Positions 51,768 to 58,841 of a stretch of DNA of 64,000 nt are shown one piece after another. Source of the stretch: Candidatus Poribacteria bacterium (GTDB lineage: Bacteria; Poribacteria; WGA-4E; WGA-3G). The number at the start of each line of letters is the position of its first letter. The stretch's first letter is position 1. Under the pieces are notes generated by a model. That model was not told where the DNA came from, ran no database searches, and saw nothing but the letters and a program-made list of their open reading frames with translations. Location: positions 62,001-126,000 of the forward strand of contig JAJDUH010000073.1 of assembly GCA_022826805.1 (NCBI GenBank). Direction: 5' to 3'. A program made the position numbers and the translations under genes.

Positions 51768-53399
51768 TTATTTTAGCTGCGTAAGGCTGTTTTCACGAGG
51801 CACGTACAGATAGGCACTCCGACCCGTGAAATATTGGGCGTACACATTTTCCCAATCACTGTTTGTCAGTTTCCACCGCGGCGCAGGACCGAGTTTAAAA
51901 TAGACAATATCCGCTTCCTCAAGACGTTGAAACGGGTAGTCTCCGATTGGTGCGCCTCGGTGCTGAGATACGAATATAACGGCGTTGTGAATATTACGTT
52001 CTGCTACCATAGGAGGTAGTTTTTGATAAACAGGACCCCAATTCTGATACACCTGCCCGATACGGATATAACTCCACACGATATTAACGCTGAGTAACAA
52101 AAAACATATCCCGACACCAATTACAAGTCCACGCCTCTGAGATACTTTAAACCGCTCATATAGAATAAACATCCCACGTGCTACCAACGGAATAAAACCG
52201 AGAAATGTCGATTCAGTATAATACCGCGCGTTTACAGGTGTAAATCCCCACGTTGAACCTTCAAAGTAGAAGACGGAATAGAGCAGCAGATTGGCTATCA
52301 GTAGGGAAAGACAGAATACATCATATTTGTTCCGAGAAGTGTGGAAAAATGGTAGAAGCGCAAGCATCCACGGCAAAATTAACGGTACAAAAGCAATGAA
52401 CCACATCAGTGATAGCTCAACTTCTTTCAACAAATTGTGATGGTAACTGCCCCAGCCCAATGCATTGAAACTGATAGATGGGAGAATGTGCCGCCACGTC
52501 CTTTCGATCGCCCATGCCGGTGTAAAGATGCGCGCCTGTTCAATATCAGGTGCGTAGCCTTCCATTCGAGGACCAAATCCGATCTTGTCGTATGGCTGCG
52601 CAACCGTATGCGTAAACAAGAACGGATCCTTTGTGAAATGGGCATTCCACGCCGTACATACCGCAAGCATTACGACAAACGGGATAAAGAAAAATCCTAA
52701 CCGTTTCACTGTAATTAATAGTGCCTCTGTTCCATCCCGTCTCTGCTGCCATTGGGTAATGAGATGATAAATAGCCAATCCCGCCCCAACAACCCCAAAG
52801 ACCACGGCGGAGAGCGGTCGTGTATTGAACGCATACCCCAGCGCGAAACCTGAAAGAAGCGGGTAACCAATCCGAGTAAGAACGGAGACATTACTTTTGT
52901 AATTTAAAGTCTTAAGAAGCGCAAATAGGTAGAGCGAAAGATAAAAGCGACTCACCGGTTCACTGAACCACGTCGATCCCATGCCGAGCGTTGCTGGTGA
53001 AATGAGCGCAAGCACCGCGGTAATAAACGCGATACTGTTGTGGATTTCTCCATATATCTCTTTTACAAACAGGTAGAGAAATATCAGCGCACCACCAGTT
53101 GCAAGCGCGGGGATAAGCCAAGGTGCGTTGATAAATACGCCGAACATCAACATCAAGGCGTTTCCGAACGGGTATTTCGAATACCACTTGCCATTGAGGA
53201 CATTAATATGCGGTGAAGAGGAGAATCCGTGTTCTGGAGGGGCAGGGAACGAGAGTTTGCCGTCCGAGAATAATTTCGCTTGGAATAGGTACGAGACGGT
53301 ATCTGGTTCAAAGTAGGAGAACTCGAAGTAGATGCCACATAGAAGGACCGATAGCAGCACACCAAGTATAGAAATGATGAAAATGGGTTTGATTTTCAT
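51768..53399 (-). CDS. GT39/ArnT-like membrane glycosyltransferase
   Basis: Many TMs; FEPDTVSYLFQAKLF N-terminal motif. Confidence 0.75.
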   Translation of the reverse strand: MKIKPIFIISILGVLLSVLLCGIYFEFSYFEPDTVSYLFQAKLFSDGKLSFPAPPEHGFSSSPHINVLNGKWYSKYPFGNALMLMFGVFINAPWLIPALATGGALIFLYLFVKEIYGEIHNSIAFITAVLALISPATLGMGSTWFSEPVSRFYLSLYLFALLKTLNYKSNVSVLTRIGYPLLSGFALGYAFNTRPLSAVVFGVVGAGLAIYHLITQWQQRRDGTEALLITVKRLGFFFIPFVVMLAVCTAWNAHFTKDPFLFTHTVAQPYDKIGFGPRMEGYAPDIEQARIFTPAWAIERTWRHILPSISFNALGWGSYHHNLLKEVELSLMWFIAFVPLILPWMLALLPFFHTSRNKYDVFCLSLLIANLLLYSVFYFEGSTWGFTPVNARYYTESTFLGFIPLVARGMFILYERFKVSQRRGLVIGVGICFLLLSVNIVWSYIRIGQVYQNWGPVYQKLPPMVAERNIHNAVIFVSQHRGAPIGDYPFQRLEEADIVYFKLGPAPRWKLTNSDWENVYAQYFTGRSAYLYVPRENSLTQLK

Positions 53400-53426
53400 T
53401 AAGTTGCCTGAAAGTCTGAAAAAAAT

Positions 53427-53455
53427 TTGACATTTGCCTCTTAATAGGGTATAAT
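53427..53455 (+). promoter_or_regulatory. Perfect-consensus sigma70 promoter TTGACA-N17-TATAAT
   Basis: Read directly from sequence. Confidence 0.85.
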
Positions 53456-53522
53456 AACATTAAATCTAATTAAAATCATCGACTTTTAACAGCAAGCTTC
53501 TGCTTGCAAACGATGCCGGAAA

Positions 53523-53576
53523 ATGCTTAACGCTATCCCATTTAATATACATCACCATCATTCGGTCCACTTCTGA
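53523..53576 (+). CDS. Histidine leader peptide MLNAIPFNIHHHHSVHF
   Basis: ATG..CAT CAC CAT CAT..CAC TTC TGA, between promoter and terminator of hisZGS. Confidence 0.85.
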   Translation: MLNAIPFNIHHHHSVHF

Positions 53577-53664
53577 GTAGAGCGGATGAGGGAATATGTA
53601 TAGACATCATTGATACGCAGCAAGTCTAACTTGTCTGGACCCTGGTAAACAAACCGCTCTCTCA
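53574..53664 (+). promoter_or_regulatory. Candidate antiterminator: TGAG(T)AGAGCGG pairs with CCGCTCTCTCA
   Basis: 11 bp with one bulge, 53574-53585 : 53654-53664; crosses terminator stem. Confidence 0.75.
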
Positions 53665-53723
53665 CGCGCTGTTCCGTCAACGCGTCTCAGAAAAGGAGCA
53701 CACTGTTTACTGGGTTTTTTTTT
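53640..53723 (+). terminator. his attenuator terminator
   Basis: CCCTGGTAAACA ... TGTTTACTGGG followed by T9. Confidence 0.8.
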
Positions 53724-53876
53724 GACTTCTTGCAGTGTCCCAAATTGTGGTTAAAGCATACTTTGTTCGTCGGTGAGGATAATAACCTTGCCATCAATCA
53801 TAATCAACGTTGTCGAAACTTGACGAAATCTATTTTTCACAACGAAAAAGATGGAGCGAAATCGAATCGTAAAAAA

Positions 53877-55313
53877 ATGGAAAAGTTTGATAAACCTACT
53901 GGAACGAGCGACTTTTTACCTGAACAGATGGTTCAGCGAAATTTCGTCGAAAAGGTCGTTCGTGAAATCTTTGAAACCTATGGATATGCCCAAATTCAGA
54001 CGCCACTGTTTGAATCTTTCGCGCTTTTATCTGCCCAGTCCGGTGAGGAAATCCGGCACAAAATGTTTACTTTTGTCGGTTCTGATCGAGTCGATTACGC
54101 ATTAAGACCCGAAATGACAGCCCCTGTTTGTCGTCTCATTGCTAGCGGAGAACTCGGACACCTCCCTTATCCGTACAAGCTCTACTACATCGGGCAATGT
54201 GTCCGACAGGAGCCGACTGCAGATGATGCCGAGGTAAAAATGGAATTCCGACAGGCTGGTGTTGAACTCATCGGACCTGCTTCTGCCCACGCCGATGCGG
54301 AAATTATCGCGATTCCTGTGCGTATCCTCGAAAAGCTCAACATTTCAAACACAAAACTAAAGATCGGAAATACAGGAATTTTTCGAGAAATTTTCAAACA
54401 GGTCTCGCTTGATACCAAGGATCACGGCGAAATTATATGGGACATCGATTATCTTGCGCGTCTGCGTGCGGAAGCAAAACTGTGGGATATTGAGACACTC
54501 CGAGATGCCTTTAATATGTTGCGACGCGCGCAGGGAACCGACTACCAAGGGGACCACAAAATTGAAACTGCCACAATTCAGGATTTAACTGAGAGTAATG
54601 TCTATGCTTATGCAGAGCAGTTGCCGAGGATCGCCGAGGAGACTTATAAAGCAAGTTGGCACCGTTACTTTAATATTGCTGGGGAGACCGCCCAGCGTTG
54701 TATAGATGTCTCAAAAATTGCGGGTGACAGGGATGCTGTCATGTCGGCATGGGAAAAACATCTCGGTAGTACAGCACAAGTAGCACGCCAAGAACTCCTC
54801 ACACTTTGTGATTGTTTGGAAAACTATGATATTACGGACTTTGAAATCAATTTGGGTATTACGCGCGGGTTCGATTTCTATACGGGAACAGTCTTTCAGA
54901 TTGAATTGCCGGAGAAACACCGACCGCTCTGCGGTGGTGGAAGATACGACAAACTGATTGAATCTTTCGGTGGTCCATCGATACCTGGGGCTGGGTTTGC
55001 ATTTCAATTTGATGCACTTATAGAGGCATTTACTGACACAGGAAAGAGAACTGTTAGCGGAAGGAAAGATTATTTCATCGCAGCAGAAACACCGGAAAGC
55101 ATCGCAGACGCACAGCAGCTCGCTGAAACGCTTCGGAGAAATGGAAAAAATGTGGAAGTTGATTTGATGGAACGCGACCTGCAGGCACAACAAGACTACG
55201 CCGGTCAAGCAAACTACGATTACCTGATCCGTTTAGTCTCTGGTGAGCCGATCCGCCGAATTCAAATTGAGACTGGGGACACACAGTCCGTCACTGTCTC
55301 CGATCTATTATAA
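53877..55313 (+). CDS. hisZ: ATP phosphoribosyltransferase regulatory subunit
   Basis: Class II aaRS-like fold; MEKFDKPTGTSDFLPEQ; followed by short hisG. Confidence 0.88.
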   Translation: MEKFDKPTGTSDFLPEQMVQRNFVEKVVREIFETYGYAQIQTPLFESFALLSAQSGEEIRHKMFTFVGSDRVDYALRPEMTAPVCRLIASGELGHLPYPYKLYYIGQCVRQEPTADDAEVKMEFRQAGVELIGPASAHADAEIIAIPVRILEKLNISNTKLKIGNTGIFREIFKQVSLDTKDHGEIIWDIDYLARLRAEAKLWDIETLRDAFNMLRRAQGTDYQGDHKIETATIQDLTESNVYAYAEQLPRIAEETYKASWHRYFNIAGETAQRCIDVSKIAGDRDAVMSAWEKHLGSTAQVARQELLTLCDCLENYDITDFEINLGITRGFDFYTGTVFQIELPEKHRPLCGGGRYDKLIESFGGPSIPGAGFAFQFDALIEAFTDTGKRTVSGRKDYFIAAETPESIADAQQLAETLRRNGKNVEVDLMERDLQAQQDYAGQANYDYLIRLVSGEPIRRIQIETGDTQSVTVSDLL

Positions 55314-55370
55314 CGGAGATCGTGTTGTTACACGTTCACAGTTCCACGCTGTAGAAGAAGGAGAATCTAA

Positions 55371-56150
55371 ATGCAAACAGAATCACAACGGACGCTGAAT
55401 CTACTTTTACCAAAGGGTAGCCTCCAGGCAGAAACCCTTGAAATGTTTCAGCGCGCCGGTTATGAACTCAACGGTTATACCGCAACTGACAGGTCTTATC
55501 GCGCGACTTTTCAAAATGATAGCGACTTTCAAATCAAAATTTCGCGTCCACAAGAGATACCCGTCTATGTTGGCATGGATGATTTCTACGATGTAGGCAT
55601 CACTGGTCAGGATTGGGTTGAAGAAACCGACGCAGATGTTGAAGAGATCTTACCTCTGGAATATGGACACATTGACATCATTCTTGCTGTTCGCGAAGAA
55701 CGTGATGACATCAATACTTTCGACGATTTGGTGAATCTCGCCGATAGAGACATCCGTATTTCAACTGAGTATCTGAACCTTGCCGAGAAATTTATCCTTG
55801 AAAAAACGGAAAATAGGATTGCACCGGCGATTTTAACGCCATGGAAGCGACTCAACACTCGCGGCTCTTACCAGGCACCAATCACGCTCATGTTGTCTTT
55901 CGGGGCAACCGAAGGGAAACCACCCGAAGAAGCCGATGCTATCATCGACAATTCAACCGCATCACGGCGTACGCTCAAGGCAAATGCGCTCAAAGTCGTT
56001 GAACTATTGCGCGAATCTGAATCTACCCTCATTGCTAATCCGAAGGCACTCAGAGATCCTTGGAAGCACGAAAAAATCGAAGAGCTTAAGCAGACGTTAC
56101 AGAAAGGTTTGCGGAGACGGCGGAGTCAGGCACTCCCGGGACACATTTAA
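55371..56150 (+). CDS. hisG: ATP phosphoribosyltransferase (short form)
   Basis: LLLPKGSLQ, VGITGQDW, DAIIDNSTASRRTLKANAL. Confidence 0.92.
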   Translation: MQTESQRTLNLLLPKGSLQAETLEMFQRAGYELNGYTATDRSYRATFQNDSDFQIKISRPQEIPVYVGMDDFYDVGITGQDWVEETDADVEEILPLEYGHIDIILAVREERDDINTFDDLVNLADRDIRISTEYLNLAEKFILEKTENRIAPAILTPWKRLNTRGSYQAPITLMLSFGATEGKPPEEADAIIDNSTASRRTLKANALKVVELLRESESTLIANPKALRDPWKHEKIEELKQTLQKGLRRRRSQALPGHI

Positions 56151-56270
56151 GGTCTTTTATCTATGGGATTTCGCTACGATTTTTTGTTGTCAGATTGTTG
56201 GTTTCTGATAAGGTCGGTGTGTTCTTGCGTGAGAGCCCAAGCTCATTAATATTTAAGAGGAGAAAAACTT

Positions 56271-57602
56271 ATGGCAGCACCATTCATTAAACCGCGTGTT
56301 CCGCGAGGGATGCGAGACATTCTACCTGAACAGATGATTCGCAGGCAATACGTTATAGATGTTGTTCGCAATGTGTTTGAAGAATTTGGGTTTGAACCCT
56401 TGCAAACACCTGCCCTCGAATTGTCTGAAGTCCTCACAGGTAAATACGGACCCGATGCTGAAAAACTTATCTATCAGGCAGGGCATGTAGGTGGAAAGGA
56501 GGACATCTCCCTCCGCTATGATCTTTCGGTGCCGCTCTGCCGCGTTATGGCCATGTATCCGCAACTGCCCAAACCCTTTAAGCGTTACCAGATTGATCCT
56601 GTCTGGCGGGCAGAACGTCCGCAAAAGGGACGCTATCGCCAATTCTTCCAATGCGACGCGGATACGGTCGGAACTGAGAGTATGCTCGCTGATGCTGAAA
56701 ATGTTAATCTCATCTATCAGGTCCTAACTCGGCTCGGTTTCAAACAATTCGAGATTAACATCAATGACCGAAAACTAATCACTGGAATCGGGCAATTCGC
56801 CGGTGTGCCTAATGAACAACTGGGTGGTCTCTATCGCTCCATTGATAAATTGGATAAAATTGGACTGTCAGGAGTCAGGGGAGAATTGATGGAAAATCAG
56901 ATTCCAGAACCCGTTATTGAGAAACTGCTCGCACTGCTTCAAATTGAAGGGGATACAACGACCGTCTTAAATGCGCTCTCTGAACAACTCGGTGATTCTG
57001 AAGTCGCAAGAGAGGGTATTGCAGAATTGGAAGAACTAAGTTCGTATCTTACAACACTCGGCGTACCAAGCGAGTTCTACAGGGTGAATGTTTCAATGGT
57101 ACGTGGATTGGAATACTATACCGGTCCGATTTATGAGACCGTTGTCGAAGAACCAAAAATCGGAAGTATCACCGGTGGCGGCAGGTACGATGAACTCATC
57201 GGCAGTTTTAGTAAGCAGGGTTACCCAGCAACAGGCACCAGTTTCGGTATTGAACGCATTATTGATGTGATGGAAGAATTTGATATGTTTCCATCAACTG
57301 TAGCCAAAACGGTAACACAGGTGTTAGTAACCGTTTTCGATGCAGAACTCGCCCAAGAATCTCTGAAAGTAGCGATGCTTCTGCGCGATAGTGGTATCCG
57401 TACCGAAGTCTATTGTCGCCCGACACGCATCAGCACACAGATGAAATATGCCGATAGCAAAAGTATACCCTATGCTGTCATCCTCGGCTCTGATGAAGTA
57501 GAAGCTGGCACGGTCGCTGTTCGGGACCTCGCGAGTCGAGAACAGCAAATTGTTCCACGAGAGAAACTTGTTGAACACGTTCAAGAATTAGCAAGGACAT
57601 AA
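56271..57602 (+). CDS. hisS: Histidyl-tRNA synthetase
   Basis: PRGMRDILPEQ; WRAERPQKGRYRQFFQCDAD; anticodon-binding C-terminus. Confidence 0.93.
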   Translation: MAAPFIKPRVPRGMRDILPEQMIRRQYVIDVVRNVFEEFGFEPLQTPALELSEVLTGKYGPDAEKLIYQAGHVGGKEDISLRYDLSVPLCRVMAMYPQLPKPFKRYQIDPVWRAERPQKGRYRQFFQCDADTVGTESMLADAENVNLIYQVLTRLGFKQFEININDRKLITGIGQFAGVPNEQLGGLYRSIDKLDKIGLSGVRGELMENQIPEPVIEKLLALLQIEGDTTTVLNALSEQLGDSEVAREGIAELEELSSYLTTLGVPSEFYRVNVSMVRGLEYYTGPIYETVVEEPKIGSITGGGRYDELIGSFSKQGYPATGTSFGIERIIDVMEEFDMFPSTVAKTVTQVLVTVFDAELAQESLKVAMLLRDSGIRTEVYCRPTRISTQMKYADSKSIPYAVILGSDEVEAGTVAVRDLASREQQIVPREKLVEHVQELART

Positions 57603-57653
57603 ATAGTTTGTCCTGTTGGATATTCAAAATGACAACGGGAGTGTTGTAGAAAA

Positions 57654-58841
57654 ATGAATCGATTTTATCAACGTCCCTATTTCACTCGCTGTATACTTTT
57701 GCTCTTTTGCATTGTTCAAGCGGTGCAGTTGACAAGTGCGGGGTGTAGCCATAGCAAACCGTATTACCGTGCTGACGTCCCAGAAATTGGAAAACGTGAT
57801 GCTGAAATAGAGGGTGTGCTTCATTATCGTCTTTTGCTCCTCGGAGATGGAGGAGAGCCAAGGCGAGATGAACCCGTACTTAAGACCCTCGGTGAATGGG
57901 CAAGAAAAGACGCTGCGAAAACGAGTATTGTCTTTTTAGGCGACAATATGTATCCAGAGGGAATGACGGAACGGAAAAAACATGAAGCCGAGAAGCGCCT
58001 CACACCACAAATCGCTGTTGTCAAAGTCTCTGGTGCTCACGGATTGTTCATTCCTGGAAATCATGATTGGGCATCAGGAAAAGCAGAAGGGCTTAGCGCA
58101 GTTCTTACACAAGAAAAATTTATCAATGAGGCACTTGCTGGCGAATTGAATTTTCTGCCATCTGGAGGCACACCCGGCCCAGTGGCACTTCAGCTTCCGA
58201 AAGCCAACCCCGCAGTCCGGCTCATCCTTCTGGATACACAGTGGTGGCTCCACCGACATGAGAAACCACAGAAATCACCCGAATCAGTTATCGAAGAACT
58301 CATCGGACTATTTGACACGGAATTACCGGTCTTTGTTGTAGGGCACCATCCACTGGAGACTTATGGACCGCACGGAGGGTACTTTGACTGGAAATATCAT
58401 CTTTTTCCTGTCAAATTTTTAAAGAAGTGGGCATGGGTTCCAGTCCCTATATTGGGATCCATAGGTCCTTACTGGCGGAAACACCTGTACAAATCTGACC
58501 AGGATATAAGCGGCGAGCGTAACAAAAATATGGTGGCGCAGCTGAATCGAGCATTTTCGGCACGGAAGTCCACTGACCAAAACACACCACTTTTAATCTA
58601 TGCCTCCGGACATGAACATTCTCTGCAAGTTTTGAAAGACGATGTCGTAGACTATTTTCTCATCAGCGGGGCTGCTGCGAGTCGGAAAGTGACGGAAGTG
58701 ATGTCTGGCGAGAATACGCTATTCGCGCATCAGCACACCGGTTTCATGGCAGTCGATTTTTTTGTTGATGGAAAAGTTTTGCTGAGGGTGGTCGAACCTG
58801 AAGGCAAAGGTGTGCTATTTCACCGTTGGTTGACATTTTAA
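57654..58841 (+). CDS. Metallophosphoesterase
   Basis: LLLGDGG, FLGDNMYPEG, PGNHDWASG, VGHHPLE, GHEHSLQ. Confidence 0.88.
   Translation: MNRFYQRPYFTRCILLLFCIVQAVQLTSAGCSHSKPYYRADVPEIGKRDAEIEGVLHYRLLLLGDGGEPRRDEPVLKTLGEWARKDAAKTSIVFLGDNMYPEGMTERKKHEAEKRLTPQIAVVKVSGAHGLFIPGNHDWASGKAEGLSAVLTQEKFINEALAGELNFLPSGGTPGPVALQLPKANPAVRLILLDTQWWLHRHEKPQKSPESVIEELIGLFDTELPVFVVGHHPLETYGPHGGYFDWKYHLFPVKFLKKWAWVPVPILGSIGPYWRKHLYKSDQDISGERNKNMVAQLNRAFSARKSTDQNTPLLIYASGHEHSLQVLKDDVVDYFLISGAAASRKVTEVMSGENTLFAHQHTGFMAVDFFVDGKVLLRVVEPEGKGVLFHRWLTF

Follow-up and report, generated by a model that had tools for sequence, protein, structure and literature searches.

A probable histidine-responsive transcription attenuator upstream of hisZ-hisG-hisS in Poribacteria

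In a 64,000-nucleotide stretch of DNA from Candidatus Poribacteria (the whole stretch analysed, hereafter the window), sequence comparison and RNA modelling indicated the hisZ-hisG-hisS genes to be, very probably, under the control of a ribosome-mediated, histidine-responsive transcription attenuator. Support for this reading comes from the parts of the leader region, their conservation in relatives, coding constraint on the leader ORF, covariation of the terminator and a predicted switch upon in-silico ribosome masking, and it upholds the enteric hisL logic that an earlier, sequence-only reading had seen in this region. Transcription would be expected to terminate in vivo near position 53723, and the genes downstream to respond to histidine. 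The leader region comprises the following parts:

53427..53455 (+): sigma-70-type promoter TTGACA-N17-TATAAT, read on the sequence (TTGACA at 53427-53432, TATAAT at 53450-53455)
53523..53576 (+): 17-codon leader ORF, MLNAIPFNIHHHHSVHF and stop, read on the sequence and backed by homologous leaders and in-frame constraint; without Shine-Dalgarno sequence
53550..53561 (+): four consecutive His codons (CAT CAC CAT CAT), the proposed sensor, read on the sequence
53546..53571 (+): region 1, 5′ arm of the His-codon hairpin (53546-53552 and 53555-53571), from the fold without ribosome and pair counts
53576..53602 (+): region 2 as 3′ arm of the 1:2 hairpin (53576-53592 and 53596-53602), from the fold and pair counts
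53574..53592 (+): region 2 as antiterminator 5′ arm, TGAGTAGAGCGG plus the extension ATGAGGG, from the pairing predicted for the stalled state
53618..53637 (+): spacer hairpin CAGCAAGU...ACUUGUCUG between regions 2 and 3, from RNAalifold pairs and the fold
53640..53664 (+): region 3, comprising the terminator 5′ arm (53640-53651) and the antiterminator 3′ arm (53654-53664 plus 53640-53646)
53664..53685 (+): inner hairpin of the terminator (ACGCGCUG/CAACGCGU), from the fold
53704..53723 (+): region 4, the terminator 3′ arm TGTTTACTGGG (53704-53714) followed by nine Ts (53715-53723)

A check against the sequence placed the promoter, the 17-codon leader ORF with its four plus one His codons, both pairs of stem arms and the nine Ts exactly where the sequence-only reading had put them. 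The promoter matches the consensus at 12 of 12 positions, is the only such match within the 4.4 kb scanned (53300-57700), and keeps its position ahead of the leader in relatives. Its divergent neighbour, starting 28 bp from it, is a 543-aa membrane-protein-like ORF (51768-53399, minus strand) without a Pfam match. Across both strands of the window, no short ORF other than the leader contains HHHH; the fifth His codon of the leader lies at 53568-53570, and the run reads HHHHSVHF. The core arms of the antiterminator pair 53574-53585 (TGAGTAGAGCGG, one T unpaired) with 53654-53664 (CCGCTCTCTCA). Located between the leader ORF and the first gene, hisZ, the intrinsic terminator contains one bulge in its arms (53640-53651 : 53704-53714) and was overlooked by a pattern-based terminator scan because its loop is longer than the scan permits. 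Folding of the leader was more stable than that of 200 out of 200 dinucleotide shuffles (z = −3.3).

These parts suggest the following mechanism. In a leader devoid of ribosomes, region 1, which holds the His codons, would pair with region 2, leaving the terminator (3:4) to form and transcription to stop near 53723. With ample His-tRNA, a ribosome would get to the stop codon (53574-53576) and cover region 2, and the terminator would again form. When charged His-tRNA is scarce, the ribosome would stall on the His run, thereby opening the 1:2 hairpin and leaving region 2 free; this region could then base-pair with region 3 and also with a portion of the 5′ terminator arm, resulting in read-through into hisZ, hisG and hisS.

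Among hisZ loci with enough upstream DNA, no relative lacking the His run and the stems came to light, the observation that the sequence-only reading had named as its refutation. Among 48 hisZ loci from GTDB genomes, whose HisZ proteins were 58-91% identical, three (L045, L050 and L059) end at contig ends upstream, and the leader was present at every one of the 45 loci with enough upstream DNA. Within the window's genus, leader, stems and terminator preceded hisZ at 24 of 24 loci, a set that partly overlaps with the former as some genomes were reached two ways. Loci of three further genera also carry the leader, at HisZ identities down to 58%, and two genomes from a genus other than the window's possess the variant MQTLFFTPHHHP(F/V)HA before the stop, with the layout unchanged. 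Four genomes overlooked by a pattern search turned out to carry the leader as well. At least three consecutive His codons (HHH or HHHH) are kept by every complete leader examined in the family. This conservation across relatives establishes the element as more than a chance pattern.

To compare the leaders in detail, 50 distinct sequences were aligned, and two more were added for folding (52 in total). The ATG of the leader is invariant within the genus, and its stop codon is nearly always TGA or TAA. At one locus (L018), a one-base deletion past the His codons makes the leader end at the next TAG; at another (L040; 47-247), the stop is lost (TGG) and the ORF continues through region 2, reflecting either a natural variant or a sequencing error. 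For leader codons 2-9 in the genus, pN/pS amounted to 0.46 in the proposed frame versus 0.94 and 0.70 in the other two, a substitution pattern indicating the reading frame to be under coding constraint. Even at third codon positions, the His run hardly varies within the genus, which points to an RNA-level role in addition. Spacing around the leader was variable: the terminator lies 542 nt from hisZ at L019, 389 nt at L022 and 25-219 nt at the other 22 loci of the genus, and at L061 the distance from promoter to His run exceeds that of near relatives by ~560 bp, as though something had been inserted between promoter and leader.

Of the stems, the terminator is the one supported by covariation. 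Across the 50 sequences, 94.9% of its cells were paired, as compared to 25-40% in slid controls, which preserve relatedness, and its outer stem reached 98.8%. Two-sided changes occurred at 8 of 17 pairs, adding up to 28 cells versus 13.1 in shuffles (0 of 500 as high), and on every measure the terminator beat all, or all but one, of the 500 shuffles, a control that ignores relatedness. The helix matching its inner hairpin showed compensatory changes at each of the seven pairs counted. An alignment of the hisZ upstream region, which the sequence-only reading had proposed as a check, thus yields compensatory changes for the terminator, but covariation of the core 2:3 stem did not rise above shuffles in the same 50 sequences. 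This core (GCGG:CCGC) is retained in 49-50 of 50 and hardly varies, and GCGGAT of region 2 is invariant in all of them; being nearly invariant, the stem receives no independent proof from covariation. Its flank differs by clade, reading AUGAGGG:CCCUGGU in the window's genus and UUAG:CUAA in most others.

The stems drawn by the sequence-only reading are borne out, but a further one, a 1:2 hairpin of the His codons with the antiterminator arm, had been overlooked. It is predicted in the window's fold without ribosome, where it holds the antiterminator arm; its inner part is kept in 99.5% of cells, and its outer part shows one two-sided change. Given the invariant 2:3 core and the single two-sided change in 1:2, both stems rest on retention, thermodynamics and position. 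Antiterminator and terminator had been claimed to exclude each other because they cross. They do cross, but strict exclusion does not follow from the stems as drawn, which share no bases; in the predicted stalled state, the antiterminator additionally pairs 53586-53592 with 53640-53646, i.e., within the terminator 5′ arm, and this extension would make mutual exclusion direct. An apparent covariation of the Ile codon ahead of the His run with region 2 was confined to one clade and left uncounted. The spacer hairpin is missing in one relative (L080).

The effect of a ribosome was modelled by masking an assumed footprint that extends from 15 nt before to 13 nt after the A site and by asking, in the 52 sequences, whether 2:3 forms before region 4 is made. 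Folding with and without this footprint predicted a switch in the expected direction. In the absence of a ribosome, 2:3 seldom formed. When the A site lay eight codons ahead of the first His codon, at the leader start, the mean probability of 2:3, P(2:3), was 0.08. It rose to 0.78, 0.91, 0.92 and 0.91 at offsets 0 to +3, corresponding to the four His codons of the window's genus, in line with the claim that a stall on these codons would free the 5′ antiterminator arm, and went from 0.91 at +4 through 0.72 at +5 to 0.12 at +6. From +7 to +15, stop codon included, it was 0.00, as anticipated if a ribosome at the stop masks the 5′ arm, a value that is partly zero by construction because masking region 2 forbids 2:3; the informative point in this model is that the leader stop codon sits where masking of region 2 occurs.

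In the window copy itself, P(2:3) was 0.01 for the ribosome-free leader, rose to 0.90-0.97 for a stall on His codons 2-3 and fell to 0.00 for a ribosome at the stop codon. Stalls on earlier leader codons also yielded 0.5-0.9, so that the preference for the His run is less sharp in this copy than in the average relative, and two loci (L069 and L071) did not switch in the fold model. When full-length leaders were folded to equilibrium, the terminator often dominated even with a stalled ribosome. This suggests that, as for other attenuators, the switch depends on the order of events during transcription.

Any translation of the leader ORF would have to start without a Shine-Dalgarno sequence. In 47 leaders (L031-L081), no Shine-Dalgarno-like pairing better than −3.3 kcal/mol was found before the leader start, and the duplex at the window's own start (53503-53525) amounts to −1.1 kcal/mol; most neighbouring genes in the window have pairings of −6 to −12. 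The missing Shine-Dalgarno sequence is a real oddity and a caveat for the attenuator reading, and the ORF may nevertheless be translated, as its coding constraint and the invariant ATG suggest. The same feature would fit a constitutive terminator with partial read-through, the leader peptide serving in another role such as translational coupling. Such a terminator would also account for a hairpin that is strong and always present, and for a model in which, without ribosome, the full leader almost always terminates. It leaves unexplained, however, why His codons, stop position and alternative stem are kept across the family and why the average stall profile peaks on the His run, and the variable distance from terminator to hisZ (25 to 542 nt) argues against translational coupling. 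We therefore give this explanation only a small chance.

Histidine-responsive attenuation as proposed here has precedents. His leader peptides are known in Proteobacteria, where the enteric hisL leader contains one longer His run. Like enteric hisL (RF00514), the poribacterial element combines a His-codon leader peptide, alternative hairpins and an intrinsic terminator with histidine genes downstream. Unlike hisL, it would control hisZ-hisG-hisS rather than a full his operon, and its leader has five His in two blocks and lacks a Shine-Dalgarno sequence. In Bacillus, Naville and Gautheret (2010) predicted a His leader peptide ahead of hisZ and hisS* (PMC2965389), and his attenuators have been predicted in the B. 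cereus group, Peptostreptococcaceae and Erysipelotrichales (PMC9413887). As in these Firmicutes predictions (PMC2965389, PMC9413887), three to five His codons precede histidine genes including hisZ, together with a terminator and an antiterminator; the host here is a member of the Poribacteria, and the likeness to the Bacillus hisZ/hisS* and other Firmicutes leaders is one of description. The sequence-only reading had considered lineage and gene context undescribed. For the lineage this stands, as no report joining Poribacteria with attenuation and leader peptides was found in a literature search whose coverage excluded most subscription papers, and the matches for Poribacteria with riboswitches or histidine biosynthesis concerned, by title, Verrucomicrobia and Chloroflexi genomes. 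For the gene context it does not: with a Bacillus hisZ leader already predicted (PMC2965389), novelty lies in the phylum and the sequence family rather than in gene context in general.

T-box riboswitches, through which other bacteria are known to regulate his genes as well as hisS (PMC9413887, PMC2965389), offer another explanation, by which uncharged tRNA-His would bind the leader RNA directly and switch the terminator, the ORF being incidental. The long leader with its terminator would suit a T-box, and His-specific T-boxes likewise regulate these genes by terminating transcription according to the charging state of tRNA-His. However, neither the window nor ten relatives matched RF00514 (His_leader) or any other Rfam family at the gathering threshold; at E ≤ 10, sub-threshold chance matches to unrelated families appeared, and none to RF00514 or a T-box. 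Moreover, the His-run ORF is conserved as coding sequence, which a T-box would not need, the sensor proposed here being the translated His run. A T-box is thus very improbable, and the element is placed in the known class of ribosome-mediated attenuators, outside RF00514. Least credible of all is that the His-rich ORF arose by chance or reflects a protein-level feature, such as the metal binding of which poly-His is capable, with no relation to the terminator. It is the sole HHHH short ORF of the window, it belongs to an element conserved beside histidine genes and present once in the window's genome, and the near-fixed third positions of its His run indicate an RNA-level role as well.

The attenuator reading would place classical translation-coupled attenuation, with a leader outside the Rfam model, in an uncultured phylum of sponge symbionts, imply transcription-translation coupling in Poribacteria and strengthen the case for a repeated origin of His attenuators. 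Although the host cannot be grown, the element is compact enough to be testable in E. coli reporters.

Downstream of the terminator, three genes follow on the same strand:

53877..55313 (+): hisZ-like gene, ATG start at 53877 by alignment to homologue starts (the mechanical ORF opens at TTG 53730)
55371..56150 (+): hisG, short form, TIGR00070 over cut-off, PF01634 without PF08029 (HisG_C)
56271..57602 (+): hisS, histidyl-tRNA synthetase with anticodon-binding domain, TIGR00442 over cut-off (395 bits), PF03129

The hisZ-like product carries PF13393 alone, without an anticodon-binding domain, and scores 226.5 bits against TIGR00443, under the cut-off of 271.65. At 478 aa, it falls under the NCBIfam cut-offs for HisZ and HisS alike, and several of its matches are split into two stretches, which suggests an insertion. 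HisG is of the short form, lacking HisG_C, not only in the window but also in a second genus of the attenuator family, whereas the two HisG proteins sampled outside this family, in the same phylum, are long and possess HisG_C. Searches for HisZ in relatives outside the family returned matches resembling hisS. The attenuator thus coincides with a HisZ plus short HisG system, as judged from these samples, and would tie the regulator to an exchange of the enzyme that catalyses the first step of the pathway.

Within Poribacteria, the element was seen in a single family, where four genera carry it; genomes of nine other families yielded none. In 20 genomes sampled outside this family but within the phylum, the hisG and hisS loci showed no HHH leader; the two HHH matches, at L147 and L150, are situated a long way downstream of hisS and hence are not leaders. 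In the window's genome, the element is present as a single copy, and no similar leader precedes hisD (located elsewhere), trpE or leuA. A tentative and rather doubtful scenario is that the attenuator and the cluster of hisZ, short hisG and hisS arose together, or were acquired together, as one unit in this family when the long HisG, which the rest of the phylum retains, was given up, and that the Shine-Dalgarno-free leader is a conserved design whose weak initiation would keep the operon off by default, making it respond to leader translation as well as to histidine. One genome (G085) contains two different copies of the leader motif, on contigs C200 and C17, and is perhaps a mixed bin.
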